NCBI GenBank assembly: GCA_946480245.1
Contig: CAMLIZ010000176.1
Coordinates: forward strand, 1-9,190
Source of the DNA: an uncultured Pseudomonadota bacterium
GTDB taxonomy: Bacteria > Pseudomonadota > Gammaproteobacteria > Burkholderiales > Burkholderiaceae
DNA: 9,190 nucleotides
Reading direction: 5' to 3'
Each line of letters opens with the position of its first letter. Position 1 is the first letter of the stretch. Positions 1 through 9,190 of the stretch are shown here, one piece after another. A program made the position numbers and the translations under genes. Under the pieces are notes generated by a model that saw only the letters and a list, made by a program, of their open reading frames with translations, made no database searches and was not told the DNA's origin.

Positions 1-418
1 GGTCGTCGTCCAGCGTGAACACGTGCTGCGTGCCGGCCTGGAACGCGATGCGGCTCACCCACTGGAAGTGCCTGCGGCTGCACACCACCACGGCGGGCTC
101 GGCGTTGCCCACGAAGTACTCGATCTCGGCGGCCTGGTAGGCGGTGTTCAGCGGCAGGTACACGAAGCCGGCGCGCAACACCGCGAGGTACAGCATCACC
201 GCCTCCACCGATTTCTCCACCTGCACCGCCACGCGCGCGCCGGCGGGCAGCGCCAGCCCCTGCAGCAGGTTGGCGATCATCGCGCTGCCGCGCTCCAGGT
301 CGCGCCACGTGTAGTGCTGCGGCGCGCCGGGGCCGTCGGCGGTTTCGATCGCCCGCGTGTCCAGGTCGGCCGGGAAGTGCGCGCGCAGCGCGGCATAGAG
401 GTTGTGGTTGTCGCTCAT
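1..418 (-). CDS. matB: Malonyl-CoA synthetase (MatB-like acyl-CoA ligase), N-terminal part, cut by the left edge
   Basis: Seen: an open frame of 139 codons from the ATG at 418 to the window edge, with no stop. It holds the N-terminal part of an ANL-superfamily (AMP-forming) acyl-CoA ligase. Residues 67-84 (VEKSVEAVMLYLAVLRAG) and 85-94 (FVYLPLNTAY) match the block characteristic of malonyl-CoA synthetases, as does the following EIEYFVGNAEPAVVVC at 98-113. The P-loop, the A8 motif and the catalytic lysine lie outside the window, so activity cannot be judged. Known of the family: MatB joins malonate (sometimes methylmalonate) to CoA using ATP, in the cytoplasm. The start lies 5 nt after the stop of the crotonase-family gene, so the two are almost certainly cotranscribed and probably translationally coupled. 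Alternative: a ligase for another short acid. The ligase family is secure; the exact substrate is less so. Confidence 0.8.
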   Translation of the reverse strand, partial: MSDNHNLYAALRAHFPADLDTRAIETADGPGAPQHYTWRDLERGSAMIANLLQGLALPAGARVAVQVEKSVEAVMLYLAVLRAGFVYLPLNTAYQAAEIEYFVGNAEPAVVVCSRRHFQWVSRIAFQAGTQHVFTLDDD

Positions 419-423
419 GGGCC

Positions 424-1254
424 TCAGAAGCGCGGCGGGCGCTTTTCGAGAAACGCGGTGATGCCTTCGCGATGCTCGGGATGATCCGCGTAGGCGAAGT
501 GGCGGTGCTGCTCGGCGGCGTCGAGACGGCCTTCGGCGAGCAGCCGCAGGGTGCGCTTGTTCAGCCGCGCGGCATGCGGCGACAGCGCCGCGATGCGCTG
601 CGCCGTGGCTTCTGCCTCCGCGGCCACGACATCGGGCGCCACCACGCGGTGCAGCACGCCGCGCCCCAAGGCCTCGGCGGCGCTCAGCAGGCGCGCTTCG
701 AGCAGCAACTCGCGCAGCACCGGCGCGGGCAGCACGCGCGCCAGCACTTCCATCTCGCCCGGCGCCATCGGGAAGCCCAGGCGCGCGATCGGGATGCCGA
801 AGCGCGCCGACGCGGCGGCGATGCGCAGGTCGCAGCAAGCGGCGATCTCCAGCCCGCCGCCCACGCACGAGCCCTCGATCTGCGCCACCAGCGGGATCTC
901 GCAGGCCAGCAGCGCGGCCAGCGCAGGCGCCACCACCTGCTGGTGATAGTGGCGCAGCGAGGCCTCCTCGAAGCGGAACTGCGGCAGCTCGGCGATGTCG
1001 GCGCCGGCCGCGAAGTGCCCGCCTGCGCCGGCCAGCAGCACGGCGCGTGGCGCCTCGGCTTCGGGCAGCGCCTGCAGGCGCTCGAACAGCGCGCGCAGCT
1101 CGCGCCACATCTGCACGCTGATCGCGTTCTGCTTGCCGGGGTTGTGCAGGGTGACCCGCAGCACGCCGTGCGCATCTGCAGCCTCGCTGTGCACGCGGGC
1201 AGGGTCGGCATGCTGGTCCGTGCTGATGCGCGGGCCCGGGGGCTGGGGGTACAT
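424..1254 (-). CDS. Enoyl-CoA hydratase/isomerase (crotonase) family protein
   Basis: A 276-residue protein of usual crotonase length if started at the ATG at 1254. The frame stays open back to 1407, but that extension lies inside the divergent regulator gene and is unlike the family. The start is not certain: only a weak purine stretch precedes it, and a GTG at codon 21 is possible. Family marks are HFAAGADI at 80-87 and CVGGGLEIAACCDLRIA at 130-146, which form the CoA thioester oxyanion hole. One catalytic glutamate is present (E136 in GGGLE). The second glutamate of classical hydratases, in a QPE motif, is replaced by I156 (GIPI, 153-156). It may therefore not be an ordinary hydratase; isomerase, thioesterase or decarboxylase activity are alternatives in this superfamily. 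It stands directly upstream of the MatB-like ligase, so its substrate may be the acyl-CoA that ligase makes (inference). Confidence 0.85.
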   Translation of the reverse strand: MYPQPPGPRISTDQHADPARVHSEAADAHGVLRVTLHNPGKQNAISVQMWRELRALFERLQALPEAEAPRAVLLAGAGGHFAAGADIAELPQFRFEEASLRHYHQQVVAPALAALLACEIPLVAQIEGSCVGGGLEIAACCDLRIAAASARFGIPIARLGFPMAPGEMEVLARVLPAPVLRELLLEARLLSAAEALGRGVLHRVVAPDVVAAEAEATAQRIAALSPHAARLNKRTLRLLAEGRLDAAEQHRHFAYADHPEHREGITAFLEKRPPRF

Positions 1255-1267
1255 TGTTCGATCCACG

Positions 1268-2743
<1,476 letters not shown>

Positions 2744-2745
2744 CT

Positions 2746-2816
2746 GAAATCCGGACAGTCGTCTTGCGTGTGGACGACAGGGATGTCTGCTCCCCAGACA
2801 CGCCGTTCCGGATTTC
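2746..2816. repeat. Nested inverted repeats able to form a three-way junction
   Basis: A perfect 10-bp inverted repeat, GAAATCCGGA at 2746-2755 and TCCGGATTTC at 2807-2816, encloses two smaller perfect dyads: GTCGTC/GACGAC (2758-2763 with 2773-2778) and TGTCTG/CAGACA (2784-2789 with 2795-2800). As RNA or extruded DNA this forms a three-way junction. It begins 2 nt after the regulator's stop codon and is followed by a weak T-rich stretch (TTTATT, about 2820-2825), so it might end regulator transcription. It may equally be a cluster of protein-binding dyads. The repeats are directly visible; the function is inferred. Confidence 0.75.
2758..2800. promoter_or_regulatory. Candidate upstream activator sites for the sigma-54 activator
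   Basis: Two dyads lie about 75-115 bp upstream of the -24 element: a 6-bp-arm dyad with a 9-nt spacer (2758-2778) and TGTCTGCTCCCCAGACA (2784-2800). Enhancer-binding proteins with Fis-type helix-turn-helix domains usually bind dyads about 80-200 bp upstream of the start point, and the activator gene ends just before them. An AT-richer segment between the dyads and the promoter (about 2811-2845) could allow DNA bending, but no exact IHF consensus was found. The two dyads differ in sequence, so at most one may be the true site. Confidence 0.5.
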
Positions 2817-2873
2817 GCCTTTATTCACGAATTTCGCCGCCTTTTCCGAGGGTTTGCACTGATCCGGTGCGCC

Positions 2874-2888
2874 TGGCACAGGCCTTGC
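2874..2888 (+). promoter_or_regulatory. Sigma-54 (-24/-12) promoter of the transporter/depolymerase operon
   Basis: The sequence TGGCACAGGCCTTGC matches the sigma-54 consensus TGGCAC-N5-TTGC. The invariant GG (2875-2876) and GC (2887-2888) are separated by exactly 10 nt. The predicted start point is near 2900, giving a leader of roughly 50 nt before the binding-protein ATG at 2952. A sigma-54 activator gene ends 130 bp upstream, which makes a chance match unlikely. Confidence 0.85.
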
Positions 2889-2951
2889 GCTGCAGGAGGC
2901 TCGAATCCGGCGGGACGGACCGCCGGGCACACACCACTGGAGACACTCCTC

Positions 2952-4154
2952 ATGCGCATTCCGCGACGTCTGTGCCTTGCCGCCTTGTCGGCGGCCGCCG
3001 TTCTTGCCACCGCTCCCGCCGCCTGGGGCGCCGGCGGCGAGATCCGCATCGCCCACGTGTACAGCAAGACCGGCCCGCTGGAGGCCTACGCCAAGCAGAC
3101 CCAGATCGGCCTGATGATGGGGCTGGAGTACGCCACCGGCGGCACGATGGCGGTCAACGGCAAGAAGCTGGTGGTGATCGAGAAGGACGACCAGGGCAAG
3201 CCCGACGTGGGCAAGAGCCTGCTCGCCGCGGCCTACAGCGACGACAAGGCGGACCTCGCCATCGGCCCCACGGCGTCGAACGTGGCGCTGGCGATGCTGC
3301 CGGTGGCCGAAGAGAACAAGAAGATCCTGCTGGTGGAGCCGGCCGTGGCCGACGCGATCACCGGAGACAAGTGGAACAAGTACATCTTCCGCACCGCGCG
3401 CAACAGCTCGCAGGACGCGATCTCCAATGCCGTGGCGCTGGACAAGCCCGGCGTCACGATCGCCACGCTGGCGCAGGACTACGCGTTCGGCCGTGATGGC
3501 GTCAAGGCGTTCAAGGACGCGCTGAAGACCGCCAAGGTGGTGCACGAGGAGTACCTGCCGCCGGCCACCACCGACTTCACCGCCGGCCTGCAGCACATCA
3601 TCGACGCGCTGAAGGACAAGCCGGGCCGCAAGGTGGTGTGGGTGGTGTGGGCCGGTGCCAACGCGCCGTTCAACAAGATCGCCGACCTGGAGCTGAAGCA
3701 GCGCTACGGCATCGAGCTGTCCACCGGCGGCAACATCCTGCCGGCGATGGCCGCGTACAAGCGCTTCCCCGGCATGGAAGGCGCCACCTACTACTACTTC
3801 GGCATTCCGAAGAACCCGGTCAACGAGTGGCTGGTGGCCAACCACTACAGCCGCTACAAGGTACCGCCCGACTTCTTCACGGCCGGCGGCATGGCGGCGG
3901 GCATCGCGGTGGTGGAGGCGCTCAAGAAGACCGGCGGCGACACCAGCACCAACAAGCTCATCAAGACCATGGAGGGCATGAGCTTCGAGACGCCGAAGGG
4001 CAAGATGACCTTCCGCAAGGAAGACCACCAGGCGATGCAGTCGATGTACCACTTCAAGATCAAGGACGACCCCGCCTTCACCTGGGGCGTGCCGGAGCTG
4101 GTGCACGAGATCAAGCCTGAAGAGATGCAGGTTCCGATCCGCAACCATCGCTGA
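2952..4154 (+). CDS. Periplasmic substrate-binding protein of a Liv/HAAT-type ABC importer
   Basis: A 400-residue type I periplasmic binding protein (Peripla_BP_6 / branched-chain amino acid receptor family). The start is the ATG at 2952, with Shine-Dalgarno GGAGA at 2939-2943. A Sec signal peptide is clear: basic MRIPRR, a hydrophobic stretch at about 8-22, and probable cleavage near AAWGA (23-27). Family landmarks are the first strand IRIAHVYSKTGPLEAYAKQT (31-50), DLAIGPTASNVALAMLPVA (101-119), and a hinge-region aromatic block ATYYYFGIPKN (278-288). It captures the ligand in the periplasm and delivers it to the downstream permeases. The family also binds amides, urea and aromatic or hydroxy acids, and I cannot read the ligand from the residues. 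As first gene after the sigma-54 promoter, followed by a hairpin, it is probably the most abundant product of the operon. The neighbouring PHB depolymerase suggests a hydroxyacid ligand (inference). Confidence 0.92.
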   Translation: MRIPRRLCLAALSAAAVLATAPAAWGAGGEIRIAHVYSKTGPLEAYAKQTQIGLMMGLEYATGGTMAVNGKKLVVIEKDDQGKPDVGKSLLAAAYSDDKADLAIGPTASNVALAMLPVAEENKKILLVEPAVADAITGDKWNKYIFRTARNSSQDAISNAVALDKPGVTIATLAQDYAFGRDGVKAFKDALKTAKVVHEEYLPPATTDFTAGLQHIIDALKDKPGRKVVWVVWAGANAPFNKIADLELKQRYGIELSTGGNILPAMAAYKRFPGMEGATYYYFGIPKNPVNEWLVANHYSRYKVPPDFFTAGGMAAGIAVVEALKKTGGDTSTNKLIKTMEGMSFETPKGKMTFRKEDHQAMQSMYHFKIKDDPAFTWGVPELVHEIKPEEMQVPIRNHR

Positions 4155-4195
4155 TCGCAGGCCGCGCACCGCCACCCGATCGATTCCTAGAACAA

Positions 4196-4213
4196 CCCCC
4201 GGGCACACGGGGG
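4196..4213 (+). other. Intercistronic GC hairpin after the binding-protein gene
   Basis: Arms CCCCCG (4196-4201) and CGGGGG (4208-4213) with a 6-nt loop form a strong hairpin in the 103-bp gap between the binding-protein and depolymerase genes. A TTTT run follows only 10 nt later (4224-4227), so this is not a classical intrinsic terminator. It may act as a partial terminator or as a 3' stabiliser of the binding-protein mRNA, a common way of making more binding protein than membrane components. Confidence 0.6.
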
Positions 4214-4244
4214 CTGGAGGGACTTTTGTGTCCAACCCTTCCAC

Positions 4245-4250
4245 AGGAGA
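4245..4250 (+). promoter_or_regulatory. Ribosome binding site that fixes the depolymerase start
   Basis: AGGAGA lies 7 nt before the ATG at 4258. An in-frame GTG at 4228 would add ten residues ahead of the signal peptide and has no comparable site, so 4258 is preferred. Confidence 0.85.
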
Positions 4251-4257
4251 CAGATCG

Positions 4258-5748
4258 ATGAGGTTCCAACACATCCGATGGCTGGCGGCGGCCGCCGCGC
4301 TGGCGTGCGGCGCCGCCCATGCCGCGTCGGCGCTGCCGCAGCTCAACGTCGACAAGACGAAGATCAGCGTGTCCGGGCTGTCCTCGGGCGGCTTCATGGC
4401 CAACCAGCTCGGCTATGCCTACTCCGCCACCTTCATGGGCGTGGGCGTGTTCGCCGGCGGCCCGTACAACTGCGCCGGCCACAGCAACTACACCGCGTGC
4501 ATGTACAACGCGAGCATCAGCAGCAGCATGCTGAGCACGATGCAGGCCGACATCAACAACTGGAGCGGCACCAGCATCGACAACAAGGCCAACGTGGCCG
4601 GCCAGAAGGTCTACCTGTTCGTCGGCACCAGCGACTACACCGTCGGCCCGAACCCGATGAACGCGGTGAACACGCAGTACCAGAACAACGGCGTCGGTTC
4701 GGGCAACCTGCAGTACGTGCAGCGCGCCAGCACCGCGCACGTGTTCCCCACCGACTTCGACGGCACCGGCGACAACGCCTGCGGCAGCAGCGCCTCGCCC
4801 TACATCGCCAACTGCGGCTACGACGGCGCCAAGGCGGCGTTCACGCAGTTCTACGGCGCCCTGAACGCGCGCAACAACGCACCGGCGGCCAGCAATTACA
4901 TCGAGTTCGACCAGACGCCGTACACCAACAACAACCTCGGCATGGCGGCCACCGGCTGGATCTACGTGCCCGCCAACTGCGCCAGCGGCACGCAATGCAA
5001 GCTGCACGTGGCGCTGCACGGCTGCCTGCAGAACTACGCGACGATCGGCGACAAGTTCATCAAGAACACCGGCTACACGCGCTGGGCCGACACCAACAAC
5101 ATCATCGTGCTGTTCCCGCAGACGAAGGTGGACAACACCAGCCATGCCACCGCGGCCAGCGGCTCGCTGGCCAACGCCAACGGCTGCTGGGACTGGATCG
5201 GCTGGTACGGCAACAACTTCGCGCAGAAGTCCGGCACGCAGATGGCCGCGATCAAGGCGATGGTCGACCGCGTGGCCTCCGGCTCCACCGGTGGCGGGGG
5301 CTCCAGTCTGCCGGCGCCCACCAACGTGAGCGCGAGCAACGCCACCAGCACCAGCATGCAGATCGGCTGGAGCGCGGTGAGCGGTGCCACCGGCTACAAC
5401 GTGTACCGCGGCGGCAGCAAGGTCAACGCGTCCGCCGTCAGCGGCACCAGCTACACCGACAGCGGCCTCAGCCCCGGCACCAGCTACACGTGGACGGTGC
5501 GCGCGGTGGACGGCAATGGCGCCGAGGGCGCAGTGTCGTCACCCGTGACCGCCAGCACCACCGGCAGCGCGGCCGTCTGCTACACGGCGAGCAACTATGC
5601 GCACACCACCGCAGGGCGCGCGCACCAGTCGGGCGGCTACACGTATGCCAACGGCTCCAACCAGAACATGGGGCTGTGGAACACCTACGTGACGACCACG
5701 CTCAAGCAGACCGGCACCAACTACTACGTGATCGGCACCTGCCCATGA
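4258..5748 (+). CDS. phaZ: Extracellular poly(3-hydroxybutyrate) depolymerase, type II catalytic domain, with FN3 and substrate-binding domains
   Basis: A 496-residue secreted serine esterase that hydrolyses short-chain polyhydroxyalkanoate (PHB) to oligomers and monomers outside the cell. Signal peptide at 1-22 (cleavage near AAHA). The catalytic domain spans about 27-340: lipase box GLSSG at 40-44 with nucleophile S42, probable D126 (GTSDYTVG), H161 (TAHVFPTD) and an oxyanion histidine H254 (ALHGC). The lipase box near the N-terminus and the oxyanion His last is the type II order. A Gly/Ser linker (342-350) leads to one fibronectin type III domain (351-434). A C-terminal substrate-binding domain (440-496) carries flanking C441 and C495 and the SNYAHTTAGRAHQSGGY segment (445-461) typical of PHB depolymerases. 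All expected parts are present and length is normal. Its stop overlaps the next gene's start (ATGA), which ties it to the ABC importer. Catalytic residues are assigned by motif, not alignment. Confidence 0.93.
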   Translation: MRFQHIRWLAAAAALACGAAHAASALPQLNVDKTKISVSGLSSGGFMANQLGYAYSATFMGVGVFAGGPYNCAGHSNYTACMYNASISSSMLSTMQADINNWSGTSIDNKANVAGQKVYLFVGTSDYTVGPNPMNAVNTQYQNNGVGSGNLQYVQRASTAHVFPTDFDGTGDNACGSSASPYIANCGYDGAKAAFTQFYGALNARNNAPAASNYIEFDQTPYTNNNLGMAATGWIYVPANCASGTQCKLHVALHGCLQNYATIGDKFIKNTGYTRWADTNNIIVLFPQTKVDNTSHATAASGSLANANGCWDWIGWYGNNFAQKSGTQMAAIKAMVDRVASGSTGGGGSSLPAPTNVSASNATSTSMQIGWSAVSGATGYNVYRGGSKVNASAVSGTSYTDSGLSPGTSYTWTVRAVDGNGAEGAVSSPVTASTTGSAAVCYTASNYAHTTAGRAHQSGGYTYANGSNQNMGLWNTYVTTTLKQTGTNYYVIGTCP

Positions 5749-6524
5749 CCCTGGAAACGCGCGACCTGACGATCCGCTTCGGCGGCCACGTGGCGGTGGA
5801 CCACGTGTCCTGCACCTTCGCGCCGGGCACGCTCACCGCCATCGTGGGCCCCAACGGCGCGGGCAAGACGACGTACTTCAACCTGATCTCCGGGCAGCTG
5901 CCGGCCTCCGAGGGCCAGGTGCTGCTGAACGGGGAGAACCTGTCGTCGCTGCCGGCGCCGCTGCGCACCCGCAAGGGGCTGGGTCGCGCGTTCCAGCTCA
6001 CGCAGCTGTTTCCCAACCTGAGCGTGCAGGAGAACGTGCGCCTGGCGGTGCAGGCCCGGCACGAAGGCCTGCGCCGCTTCGGTGCGCTCGACCTGCTGCG
6101 CGTGTGGCTGGACCGGCGCGACTGGATCGACGAGGCGCGCAGCATCCTCGAGACGGTGCGCCTGTCGACCAAGGCCGACGCGCACGCGGCCAGCCTGCCG
6201 CACGGCGACCAGCGCAAGCTGGAGGTGGCGTTGCTGATCGCGCTCGACCCGCAAGTGTTCATGTTCGACGAACCCACCGCCGGCATGAGTGTGGACGAGG
6301 TGCCAGTGATCCTGGACCTCATCCGCGCGCTCAAGGCCCGGCGCGACCGCACGATCCTGCTCGTCGAACACAAGATGGATGTGGTGCGCGAACTGGCCGA
6401 CCGCATCATCGTGCTGCACAACGGCCAGCTCGTGGCCGACGGCGACCCGGCCGAGGTGATCGCGTCGCCGGTGGTGCAGCAGGCCTACCTGGGCACGGCG
6501 CCGGTCGAGGAGGTGGCGGCATGA
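5745..6524 (+). CDS. LivG-type ABC transporter ATP-binding protein
   Basis: A 259-residue cytoplasmic ATPase that powers the importer as one half of a LivG/LivF heterodimer. Walker A GPNGAGKT at 35-42, Q-loop Q84 (RAFQLTQLFPNLSV), signature LPHGDQRKLE at 151-160, Walker B VFMFDEPTAGM at 171-181 and switch histidine H209 (LLVEHKMDVV) are all intact. The long insert between Q-loop and signature and the TAGM segment are LivG-type. The signature is slightly divergent from LSGGQ, as is usual in LivG. The start is fixed by the 4-bp ATGA overlap with the depolymerase stop; the frame is open far upstream, but that part is only a shadow of the depolymerase gene. Its own stop overlaps the LivF-type start in the same way. 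Confidence 0.95.
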   Translation: MTLETRDLTIRFGGHVAVDHVSCTFAPGTLTAIVGPNGAGKTTYFNLISGQLPASEGQVLLNGENLSSLPAPLRTRKGLGRAFQLTQLFPNLSVQENVRLAVQARHEGLRRFGALDLLRVWLDRRDWIDEARSILETVRLSTKADAHAASLPHGDQRKLEVALLIALDPQVFMFDEPTAGMSVDEVPVILDLIRALKARRDRTILLVEHKMDVVRELADRIIVLHNGQLVADGDPAEVIASPVVQQAYLGTAPVEEVAA

Positions 6525-7267
6525 GCAACATCCTCGAACTCAGCGGCGTGCACACGCACATCGGCGCGTATCACATCCTGCACGGCGTGGACCTTGCCGT
6601 GCCCGAAGGCGAGCTGACGATGCTGCTGGGCCGCAACGGCGCCGGCAAGACGACCACGCTGCGCACGATCATGGGCCTGTGGCAGGCCAGCCAAGGCAGC
6701 GTGCGCTTCCAGGGCCGGCAGATCGGCGGGCCGGGCGGCCAGCAGAGCACACCGCTGATCGCCGAGGGCGGCATCGCCTACGTGCCGGAGAACATGGGCA
6801 TCTTCGGCGACCTTACCGTCAAGGACAACATGGTGCTGGCCGCGCGTCGCGCCCGCACCGCCGACCAGTTGGACACGCAACGGCTCGACTGGATCTTCGG
6901 CCTCTTCCCCGCGTTGCGAAAGTTCTGGCTCTACCCGGCCGGCAAGCTGAGCGGCGGCCAGAAGCAGATGCTCGCCGTGGCGCGCGCGATCGTCGAGCCG
7001 CGCCAGCTGATCCTCGTGGACGAGCCGAGCAAGGGGCTCGCCCCGTCGATCATCCAGAACCTCATCAGCGCCTTCAAGGAGCTGAAGCGCCAGCGCACGA
7101 CGATCCTGCTCGTCGAGCAGAACTTCGCGATGGCCAAGGCGCTGGGCGACCACGTGGCGGTGATGGACGACGGGCGGGTGGTGCACAGCGGCGCGATGGC
7201 GGAGCTGGCGGAGGATGATTCGCTGCAGCAGCGGTTGCTGGGGTTGTCTTTGGGGGCGCATCAGTGA
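6521..7267 (+). CDS. LivF-type ABC transporter ATP-binding protein
   Basis: A 248-residue second ATPase of the Liv/HAAT importer. Walker A GRNGAGKT at 37-44, AYVPENMGIFGDLTV at 86-100 (Q-loop region, where LivF proteins carry VPE), signature LSGGQKQM at 143-150, Walker B LILVDEPSKGLAP at 163-175, and VEQNFAMA at 198-205, where LivF proteins carry Gln in place of the switch His. All motifs are intact. The start codon overlaps the LivG-type stop (ATGA). Downstream the operon is broken by a 322-bp non-coding stretch with a large inverted repeat before the permease genes. Confidence 0.95.
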   Translation: MSNILELSGVHTHIGAYHILHGVDLAVPEGELTMLLGRNGAGKTTTLRTIMGLWQASQGSVRFQGRQIGGPGGQQSTPLIAEGGIAYVPENMGIFGDLTVKDNMVLAARRARTADQLDTQRLDWIFGLFPALRKFWLYPAGKLSGGQKQMLAVARAIVEPRQLILVDEPSKGLAPSIIQNLISAFKELKRQRTTILLVEQNFAMAKALGDHVAVMDDGRVVHSGAMAELAEDDSLQQRLLGLSLGAHQ

Positions 7268-7589
7268 GTCGCGTGTCTTTCGGTTGGCGCGAGCAAAGCT
7301 GCGGGCGGGCCGCCGTCGGGGCTTCATCTGCTTGCCCACGCTGCGCGAGGGTTCCCTGCGATGCTCGGTCTTGTGGCCCGTGGCCGAACTCGCTTCGTTC
7401 GCTTCAACAACTGACCCGCTGGGACTGGTCGAGCGAAGAGAGCGCAGCGAACGAAGCGAGTTTCCCAGCGCGACCTCAGCCCGAGCATCGCAGCGGAGTC
7501 GGCGCCGCAGGCGACGATCGCCCCAGTGTGAGCGCCCGCCGGGTACCGCCTGCCGCGACGCGCCAACCATCGCCAGACCTTCTCACCCA
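7268..7589. other. 322-bp non-coding stretch inside the operon
   Basis: No convincing gene is present. The LivH frame is open backwards through it to 7215, but that translation is Arg/Ser-rich and resembles no permease. The centre holds a large inverted repeat (7356-7493). Its right flank adds a small hairpin, GGCGA-CGA-TCGCC (7510-7522). The left flank (7268-7355) shows no feature I can name. No sigma-54 or clear sigma-70 promoter was found, and no good ribosome binding site before the LivH start. Every other gap downstream of the depolymerase start is an overlap or 13 nt, so this block looks like an insertion. Confidence 0.75.
7356..7493. repeat. Large interrupted inverted repeat, probable extragenic or MITE-like element
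   Basis: Two pairs of perfect arms are nested. CTGCGATGCTCGG (7356-7368) pairs with CCGAGCATCGCAG (7481-7493). AACTCGCTTCGTTCGCT (7387-7403) pairs with AGCGAACGAAGCGAGTT (7446-7462). A third pair, CGCTGGGA (7417-7424) and TCCCAGCG (7463-7470), crosses the second and would make an alternative fold or pseudoknot. From memory, intergenic blocks with a GAACTCGCTTCG...CGAAGCGAGTT core recur in Burkholderiales genomes, which suggests a dispersed repeat family; this needs a genome search. No transposase and no clear target-site duplication are visible. Confidence 0.8.
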
Positions 7590-8621
7590 ATGAGCGCCAC
7601 AACCACCACCCAAGCGCCCACCATGGGCGCCGCGGCCATCCCCAAAGCGCAGTTCGACTGGAAGCCGCTCGGCCTTCTCGCCGCCGTGGCCGTGCTCGCG
7701 TTGCCGCTGGTGGGCAGCGGCTCCACCTGGCTCACGCTCACGCTGGCCGGGCTGGCGATGGGCTTGATCGTGTTCATCATCGCCTCCGGCCTCACGCTGG
7801 TGTTCGGCCTGATGGACGTGCTGAACTTCGGCCACGGCCTGTTCATCGCATTCGGTGCGTTCGTGGCCACCAGCGTGATGGCCGGCATGCACGACTGGGC
7901 CGGGTCATCGTCGCTGCTGTTGAACCTGGGTGCCGTGTTCCTGGCAATGCTGGCCGCGATGGCGGTGACCGCCGCGCTCGGACTGGCGTTCGAGCGCGTG
8001 ATCGTGCGGCCGGTGTACGGCCAGCACCTCAAGCAGATCCTCATCACGATGGGCGGCATGATCGTCGGCGAGGAGTTCATCAAGGTGCTGTGGGGCCCGC
8101 AGCAGATCCCGCTGCCGCTGCCGCCCGCGCTGAGCGGTGCGTTCCTGATAGGCGATGCCGCGGTCGAGAAGTACCGGGTGTTCGCGGTGGTGATCGGCCT
8201 GCTGGTGTTCGCTGCGCTGCTGTGGGTGCTCAACCGTACCAAGCTCGGCCTGCTGATCCGCGCCGGCGTGCAGGACATCGAGATGGTGGAGAGCCTGGGC
8301 TACCGCATCCGGCGCCTGTTCATCGGCGTGTTCATGGCCGGCTCCGCGCTGGCCGGCCTGGGTGGCGTGATGTGGGGGCTGTACCAGCAGAGCGTCACGC
8401 CGCAGATCGGCGGGCAGGTCAACGTGCTGATCTTCATCGTCATCATCATCGGCGGGCTCGGCTCCACCCTGGGCTGCTTCGTGGGGGCACTCGCAGTGGG
8501 GCTGATGGCCAACTACACCGGCTACCTGGCGCCGAAGGTGGCGCTGTTTTCCAACATCGGGTTGATGGTGGCGGTGCTGCTGTGGCGGCCGCGCGGGCTG
8601 TATCCGGTGACGAGCCGCTGA
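7590..8621 (+). CDS. LivH-type ABC transporter permease
   Basis: A 343-residue inner-membrane permease of the Liv/HAAT importer (BPD_transp_2 family), rich in hydrophobic helices: about 27-41, 46-73, 80-99, 109-131, 196-214, 243-263, 276-306 and 316-332. Family marks are GLMDVLNFGHGLFIAFGAFV (73-92), matching the LivH NFAHG segment, FERVIVRPVYG (134-144), and the cytoplasmic coupling stretch RAGVQDIEMVESLGY (224-238). The N-terminus has about 22 extra hydrophilic residues. The ATG at 7590 has no Shine-Dalgarno, and the in-frame ATG at 7623 (codon 12) is no better, so the start is uncertain. The open frame runs further upstream through the inverted repeat, but that part is not family-like. The LivM-type gene starts 13 nt after its stop. 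Confidence 0.92.
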   Translation: MSATTTTQAPTMGAAAIPKAQFDWKPLGLLAAVAVLALPLVGSGSTWLTLTLAGLAMGLIVFIIASGLTLVFGLMDVLNFGHGLFIAFGAFVATSVMAGMHDWAGSSSLLLNLGAVFLAMLAAMAVTAALGLAFERVIVRPVYGQHLKQILITMGGMIVGEEFIKVLWGPQQIPLPLPPALSGAFLIGDAAVEKYRVFAVVIGLLVFAALLWVLNRTKLGLLIRAGVQDIEMVESLGYRIRRLFIGVFMAGSALAGLGGVMWGLYQQSVTPQIGGQVNVLIFIVIIIGGLGSTLGCFVGALAVGLMANYTGYLAPKVALFSNIGLMVAVLLWRPRGLYPVTSR

Positions 8622-8634
8622 GAGGCAGGACGCG

Positions 8635-9190
8635 ATGCTGAACCGCCTGCTCTCCCACGACCTGCCGCGCAGCCGCTGGCTCGCCGTGGCACTGGTGCTC
8701 ATCGTGCTCGGCCTGGCGGTGGCGCCCTTCGCGTTCCCCGGCGCCAAGGCGCTGGGCACGGCGGCCAAGATGCTGGTGTTCATCCTGCTCGTGGCCAGCT
8801 ACGACCTGCTGCTGGGCTACACCGGCATCGTGAGCTTCGCGCACACCATGTTCTTCGGCATCGGTGCGTATGGCGTCGCGATCGCCAGCACGCGCATGGG
8901 CGGTGGCTGGGGCGCGGTGGTGCTGGGGCTCGCGTGTGCGCTGGCGGTGTCGCTGGTGCTGTCGCTGGTGATCGGCCTCTTCTCGCTGCGCGTGAAGGCG
9001 ATCTTCTACGCAATGATCACGCTGGCCGTGGCCGCGGCGTTCCAGACGCTGGCCTCGCAGCTGTCCGATTTCACCGGCGGGGAGGACGGGCTCACCTTCA
9101 GCAACCCCGAGTGGCTGTCGCCCTCGTACGAACCCTTCGACAACCCGGTGCTGGGCGTCACGCTGGACGGCAAGATCTTCTGCTACTACG
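8635..9190 (+). CDS. LivM-type ABC transporter permease, N-terminal part, cut by the right edge
   Basis: 185 codons are open from the ATG at 8635 to the window end. AGGCAGGA just upstream (8623-8630) serves as ribosome binding site. Hydrophobic helices occur at about 15-34, 44-60, 66-86, 92-117 and 122-140. Residues 61-79 (GYTGIVSFAHTMFFGIGAY) correspond to the LivM G-x-S-x-x-H-x-x-FFGIGAY motif, and TGGEDGLT at 147-154 to its conserved T-G-G-x-x-G-L segment. It pairs with the LivH-type protein to form the membrane channel. The C-terminal part lies outside the window, so completeness cannot be judged. Confidence 0.93.
   Translation, partial: MLNRLLSHDLPRSRWLAVALVLIVLGLAVAPFAFPGAKALGTAAKMLVFILLVASYDLLLGYTGIVSFAHTMFFGIGAYGVAIASTRMGGGWGAVVLGLACALAVSLVLSLVIGLFSLRVKAIFYAMITLAVAAAFQTLASQLSDFTGGEDGLTFSNPEWLSPSYEPFDNPVLGVTLDGKIFCYY

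Follow-up and report, generated by a model that had tools for sequence, protein, structure and literature searches.

What does a branched-chain-amino-acid-type (Liv-type) ATP-binding cassette (ABC) importer carry when a gene for a secreted depolymerase of poly(3-hydroxybutyrate) (PHB) lies inside its operon? The question is raised by a 9,190-nt stretch of DNA from an uncultured bacterium of the Burkholderiaceae (assembly GCA_946480245.1, contig CAMLIZ010000176.1, positions 1 to 9,190; hereafter the window). The genes of the operon follow each other in the order SBP (periplasmic substrate-binding protein)-phaZ-livG-livF-livH-livM. The analysis describes a real, recurrent and modular operon, most likely for PHB utilisation. 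The most likely cargo of the importer is the breakdown products of PHB, and the operon as a whole is likely to be a sigma-54-controlled system for scavenging extracellular PHB.

Judged by its profile match, the window PhaZ is a complete type-2 extracellular short-chain polyhydroxyalkanoate (PHA) depolymerase. It covered the type-2 depolymerase profile NF050059 from position 1 to 305 of 305 with 378 bits (cut-off 280), and its closest solved relatives were the PHB depolymerase chains 2d80/2d81. Ser42, Asp126 and His161 sit in the motifs GLSSG, GTSD and TAH, respectively, in the alignment, where Ser42 falls on the serine that is Ala in 2d81 and the other two residues are likewise aligned; we take the three to be the catalytic triad. 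The N terminus, MRFQHIRWLAAAAALACGAAHA, resembles a Sec signal by eye, and a crude script rule found Sec-like starts in 16 of 20 operonic phaZ relatives. An earlier sequence-only reading had claimed this gene order, with a complete secreted type-2 depolymerase between the SBP and ATPase genes, and an overlap of the phaZ stop with the livG start (ATGA). Both were confirmed, the latter with a livG start at 5745 and a phaZ end at 5748.

The importer belongs to the HAAT (Liv-type) class: a PF13458 binding protein, two ATPases and two PF02653 permeases are encoded in one operon, with livM cut by the window end. Assignment as Liv proper or as a urea importer was rejected, since component scores stayed below the curated cut-offs. 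Against PRK15404 (branched-chain amino-acid importer) the SBP reached 52 of 477 bits, and against the Urt (urea importer) models the scores were 60/493 (UrtA), 203/304 (UrtD), 204/286 (UrtE) and 154/250 bits (UrtB). The solved chains nearest to the SBP, matched over nearly the full length, were 3n0x_A (573 bits) and 3nnd_B (554 bits). Identity to Escherichia coli LivJ was 24% over 316 columns. When the SBP family was aligned with LivJ/LivK in hhalign, the Glu of the LivJ GPEG stretch, presumably the amino-group ligand, fell on GGNI of the SBP; the acidic position is not kept in this shallow alignment, which carries little weight. The operon encodes a HAAT importer, probably with a new class of cargo.

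The association of phaZ with this SBP recurs. At least 581 SBP relatives were confirmed in contigs of one genome per species, and the best 80 were taken as loci. Between SBP and livG, phaZ was present in 20 of the 78 loci with livG (L071 and L079, which lack livG, were left out of this count and of the tree label). An even draw of 299 genomes, independent of the SBP, was made from the family of L001 (Roseateles). The SBP was found in 160 of these genomes (E at most 1e-100). Type-2 phaZ was detected 71 times, in 66 genomes, at E up to 1e-60, and 67 of these hits exceeded the curated cut-off. In 39 genomes a phaZ gene begins 110-415 bp behind the SBP and in the same orientation. This amounts to 39 of the 71 hits, 39 of the 48 hits in SBP genomes and 39 of the 160 SBP genomes; the other hits lie elsewhere in SBP genomes (9) or in genomes without the SBP (23), and contexts were examined for 20 of these 32. 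Recurrence in this draw contradicts a chance or isolated arrangement, and presence in 39 of 160 led us to reject phaZ as a fixed operon part. Copy number was checked in 37 hand-chosen genomes of the 80 loci. All 15 with operonic phaZ held exactly one type-2 hit above the cut-off; any such hit was seen in 3 of the 22 others. A tandem SBP duplicate precedes the operon in L013, L017, L057, G097, G164 and G321.

The slot has been occupied by more than one phaZ lineage. When 41 catalytic domains (20 operonic, 20 off-operon and that of the window) were placed in a tree, the operonic sequences divided into two well-separated groups, the window group with 8 rows and an Acidovorax-type group with 13, and a single origin was rejected (p-AU 6e-54 for all operonic copies together). 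Some off-operon copies nest within both groups, with a long-branch warning among the off-operon rows; replacement in place or exit from the operon is therefore possible.

Further hydrolases are encoded behind livM in the relatives. A 3-hydroxybutyrate (3HB)-oligomer hydrolase (3HBOH, PF10605) was found there in 24 of the 69 loci whose sequence extends 4 kb or more past livM; the label excludes the window and 11 loci with a short downstream end. The copy in L001 scored 1050 bits against PF10605. The 299 genomes held 100 3HBOH hits in 94 genomes. Of these hits, 49 share the strand of the SBP and are located 3.6-6.3 kb downstream of it (49 of 160 SBP genomes), behind livM where read; 16 have other positions in SBP genomes, and 35 belong to genomes that lack the SBP. 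The operon carries phaZ, 3HBOH or both in 67 of 160 SBP genomes. A quickly built SBP tree, many of whose branches are weak, requires at least 11 changes for each of the phaZ and 3HBOH labels, gain and loss not being separable. By a crude script rule, 21 of the 24 operonic 3HBOH proteins have a lipobox-like N terminus (exceptions L012, L063 and L070). In L080 and L039 the place of 3HBOH, between livM and the alpha/beta hydrolase gene, is taken by a carboxylesterase of the unrelated family PF00135, whose start looks lipobox-like by eye. In two genomes without this SBP (L091, L096), phaZ adjoins 3HBOH directly.

An alpha/beta hydrolase of about 280 residues is the constant partner of the importer in the relatives, beyond the part covered by the window. 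In 66 of 69 loci it is encoded behind livM, either immediately or with 3HBOH or other genes in between. Its leader is free of a hydrophobic stretch in 67 of 67 proteins, and GTSMGG, CGH and several Asp residues are invariant in 8 of 8 aligned sequences. The nearest solved relatives are 3bwx ('alpha/beta hydrolase') and 4ose ('putative hydrolase'). A link between a cytosolic esterase and an importer would suggest an imported molecule that retains an ester bond. The two loci nearest to the window in context, L063 and L070, whose phaZ catalytic domains are 77% and 82% identical to that of the window, hold both 3HBOH and the alpha/beta hydrolase. Since the window itself stops in livM, its operon is incomplete and neither gene can be shown for its organism, where we infer them downstream. 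Eight loci, all with phaZ, have an extra binding-protein gene between 3HBOH and the alpha/beta hydrolase (L004, L015, L030, L047, L051, L053, L056, L057); that of L004, the one tested, belongs to PF13458.

The operon is preceded by a perfect sigma-54 site, TGGCAC-N5-TTGC, which begins 78 nt before the SBP start and from which the operon is predicted to be co-transcribed. In 61 of 79 scanned sequences (78 relatives and the window; L076 was dropped as a contig edge artefact and L039 was too near an edge), the 300 nt before the SBP gene contained a -24/-12 site with at most one mismatch. By comparison, such a site preceded about 1.3% of 789 other genes on the plus strand and turned up in about 1.3 of 80 shuffles. 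Among the 19 scanned relatives with phaZ, 17 had the site. A sigma-54 activator cluster is present in 65 of 81 (80 loci and window). Of the 14 scanned loci without a visible activator gene, 11 had no site, and L005, L045 and L067 had one.

More distant relatives were sampled by two draws. The SBP query gave matches in 23 of 398 genomes of a phylum draw (E up to 1e-90), and a Mariluticola SBP query in 12 of 289 genomes of a class draw (E up to 1e-130). On the Mariluticola halotolerans plasmid NZ_CP090961 (L145), the order is sigma-54 regulator, 3-hydroxybutyrate dehydrogenase, SBP, ATPases, permeases and alpha/beta hydrolase. The regulator is 49% identical to that of the window, and the dehydrogenase, directly before the SBP, scored 370 bits against TIGR01963 (cut-off 307). 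A second 3HB dehydrogenase lies directly behind livM in L137 (PRK13394, 352 bits, cut-off 340; PRK12429, 330 bits, cut-off 258). Weaker short-chain dehydrogenase matches were seen in L129, L135 and L147. An alpha/beta hydrolase follows livM in 16 of 32 distant loci (3 of 16 in L126-L141, 5 of 6 plasmid records in L142-L147 and 8 of 10 in L160-L169), in part from another subfamily with 22-25% identity. Away from the SBP slot, one phaZ locus (L085) has a 3HB dehydrogenase about 7 kb from phaZ (PRK13394, 398 bits, cut-off 340).

Because several unrelated enzyme families share this gene context, PHB breakdown products are favoured as cargo. Secreted PhaZ would cut PHB outside the cell to 3HB and short oligomers. 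In many relatives an envelope protein of the 3HB-oligomer-hydrolase family may trim the products further, as may the carboxylesterase in the two loci that have it. The SBP would capture its predicted substrate in the periplasm and the LivH/M/G/F importer bring it in. In relatives, the cytosolic alpha/beta hydrolase encoded behind livM would split an imported dimer or short oligomer, and a 3HB dehydrogenase would take the monomer on. The constancy of the alpha/beta hydrolase favours oligomers as cargo; the envelope hydrolases make monomers, which favours 3HB itself. On the best reading, importer and alpha/beta hydrolase form the putative core and phaZ an exchangeable module. Tentatively, we suggest a more specific form, in which the operon encodes a dedicated ABC importer for 3HB oligomers, at least the dimer. 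The oligoester would be carried in intact and finished by the cytosolic alpha/beta hydrolase, and the polymer-cutting enzymes (two phaZ lineages, 3HBOH, carboxylesterase) would be exchangeable front ends of a conserved import core. Such a system would work as polysaccharide and peptide importers do, by cutting outside, intact uptake and finishing inside.

Several observations weigh against PHB products as cargo or against parts of this scheme. The sequence-only reading had described phaZ as built into the operon and had counted its absence from the operons of most relatives as evidence to the contrary; literally this is what was found, in 121 of 160 SBP genomes, and that description was not borne out. 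Neither phaZ nor 3HBOH is in the operon of 93 of the 160. 3HBOH occurs in 21 of 39 phaZ-positive and 28 of 121 phaZ-negative operons (Fisher p 6e-4, which ignores kinship), and a kinship-aware test of the association gave a median p of 0.5 with too few pairs. The lipobox rule fails for 3HBOH of L063 and L070, the relatives nearest in context. The alpha/beta hydrolase meets no curated NCBIfam cut-off. A 3HB dehydrogenase scored above a cut-off in only 2 of the 32 distant loci, that of L137 being just under the TIGR01963 cut-off (303.5 of 307), and the 80 loci contained no match to a 3HB-dehydrogenase query at E 1e-20. Other distant loci have genes for acyl-CoA ligase, enoyl-CoA hydratase, MaoC, and CoA transferase or decarboxylase instead. 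The substrate range may therefore be wider or differ; such varied neighbours fit an organic acid cargo, not 3HB in particular. What stood of the earlier claims is the idea that phaZ and the importer act together. Recurrence supports it strongly: 39 of 71 phaZ hits lie next to the SBP, two phaZ clades share the slot, 49 of 100 3HBOH hits lie downstream of the SBP, and a 3HB dehydrogenase adjoins the importer in two distant loci. Of the gene order that the sequence-only reading proposed to look for, phaZ between SBP and livG recurs in 20 of 78 loci and phaZ behind the SBP in 39 of 160 SBP genomes, as an inconstant member.

The strongest alternative, with a nearly even chance of being right, is that the importer takes up, in monomeric form, a broader class of short acids (hydroxy-, keto- or fatty acids such as 3HB, acetoacetate or crotonate). 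The phaZ and 3HBOH genes would then be mere feeders recruited in some lineages, and the alpha/beta hydrolase would act on another substrate, for example a lactone or thioester. Distant loci with acyl-CoA ligase, enoyl-CoA hydratase or CoA-transferase genes as neighbours and the 93 of 160 operons without phaZ and 3HBOH agree with this, as does the alpha/beta hydrolase, which scored higher with enol-lactonase models than with the intracellular depolymerase model, all below cut-off. That PHB-specific enzymes were recruited to fixed places again and again, and that a 3HB dehydrogenase is a neighbour in two loci, points to 3HB in particular. Where the cargo is 3HB, this alternative overlaps with import of PHB products, and the likelihoods given to the two are not exclusive.

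It is unlikely that phaZ and importer share only their regulation, through the sigma-54 activator and starvation, while the cargo is an unrelated amino acid, amide or urea. The sigma-54 promoter match before the operon, the Liv-type architecture and the matches of the SBP to UrtA and LivJ-like models all speak for this, but the SBP scores lie far under the cut-offs (60 of 493 and 52 of 477 bits), and the position of the LivJ GPEG Glu is GGNI in the SBP (in the shallow alignment). Regulation alone also hardly explains three unrelated families of secreted or envelope esterases, a cytosolic hydrolase and a 3HB dehydrogenase. Insertion of phaZ into a Liv operon by chance would suit its absence there in 121 of 160 SBP genomes, but is very improbable, since 39 of the 71 phaZ hits from 299 genomes share this one place and two phaZ clades occur there.

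The remaining features of the window are listed in Table 1. The best NCBIfam match of the acyl-CoA ligase was PRK07514 malonyl-CoA synthase with 153 bits; the cut-off of 558 refers to the whole protein, of which only the 5' part is encoded here. The livF-livH gap is predicted to fold into a long hairpin that includes an inverted repeat of 17 nt. None of the 171 loci covered contains the exact 17-mer, and the gap varies among relatives. No RNA family was found at gathering cut-offs, the SBP-phaZ gap showed no unusual RNA fold (z -1.1), and no sigma-70 promoter-like site was found in 2700-9190. Around the operon of relatives, tripartite tricarboxylate transporter genes (TctA, TctC) and a two-component sensor occur in about 20 of 80 loci, mostly upstream of the activator; a chemotaxis-receptor cluster gene (the L002 member was tested) lies between activator and SBP in L009, L011, L014, L038, L042, L050 and L061; and a TonB receptor cluster lies upstream in 9 loci. 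A second Liv-type cluster, with ATPases about 40% identical, follows the first in L018, L022, L041, L044, L050 and L054. In L083, away from this SBP family, such a cluster is flanked by 3HBOH on one side and by phaZ and a sigma-54 activator gene on the other.

Table 1. Features of the 9,190-nt window
Feature	Position	Strand	Family or remark
AMP-forming acyl-CoA ligase, 5' part, runs off window	2..418	(-)	PF00501; start 391 or 418 uncertain
Enoyl-CoA hydratase family protein	424..1254	(-)	PF00378, 152 bits
Sigma-54-dependent activator (PAS-like, AAA+, Fis helix-turn-helix)	1268..2743	(+)	PF00158, PF02954; start uncertain
Inverted repeat TGTCTG-N5-CAGACA	2784..2800	.	Possible activator site, weak
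Sigma-54 -24/-12 promoter, TGGCACAGGCCTTGC	2874..2888	(+)	Perfect match
SBP, periplasmic substrate-binding protein, HAAT type	2952..4154	(+)	PF13458
phaZ, predicted secreted type-2 short-chain PHA depolymerase with fn3 and C-terminal domain	4258..5748	(+)	NF050059
livG-type ATPase	5745..6524	(+)	ATGA overlap with phaZ stop
livF-type ATPase	6521..7267	(+)	ATGA overlap with livG at 6521-6524
Palindromic livF-livH gap, 322 nt	7268..7589	.	RNA fold -159.8 kcal/mol, z -2.9
livH-type permease	7590..8621 (start about 7590)	(+)	PF02653
livM-type permease, 5' part, runs off window	8635..9190	(+)	PF02653

The uptake step of extracellular PHB degraders appears largely unassigned in the excerpts of the literature covered. 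The importer described here is a testable candidate that occurs in 160 of the 299 genomes of the even draw (family of L001, Roseateles), and it would fill this gap in bioplastic breakdown. It would also change the annotation of many 'branched-chain amino acid' transporters, and engineered plastic upcycling would gain an uptake module.

Among known systems, the closest solved relative of the window SBP is the 'possible substrate binding protein of ABC transporter system' 3n0x/3nnd, presumably from Rhodopseudomonas palustris, for which we know of no ligand or function. It was not identified in the available part of an R. palustris binding screen (PMC3223731), and no HAAT transporter for lactate or 3HB was found in the corresponding part of GapMind (PMC9007349). 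Titles and abstract starts of the open-licence PMC literature yielded no Liv-type importer linked with a PHB depolymerase or 3HB-oligomer uptake, in agreement with the earlier statement that no HAAT importer dedicated to PHA products is well described. For the products of medium-chain-length PHA, passive diffusion is proposed in the excerpt of PMC13101487 (2026). The hbtABC genes of Ruegeria pomeroyi (SPO2571-2573) serve 3-hydroxybutyrate uptake and are termed the only confirmed bacterial system of this kind; they are three compared with five genes here, and the text available of PMC10130141 describes no depolymerase with them. The five-component architecture and the domain families of E. coli LivJ/LivK-LivHMGF (HAAT) are those of the window operon, which differs in carrying a secreted depolymerase and in an SBP far under the PRK15404 cut-off. 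The HbtABC transporter is presumably of the TRAP type. A Liv-type importer for a short hydroxy acid, the L-lactate HAAT transporter of Phaeobacter, has reportedly emerged from fitness studies; we know of no link between it and polymer degradation. Extracellular PHB degradation by PhaZ and 3HB-oligomer hydrolase (PhaY) employs the same two enzyme families that are found with the importer described here.

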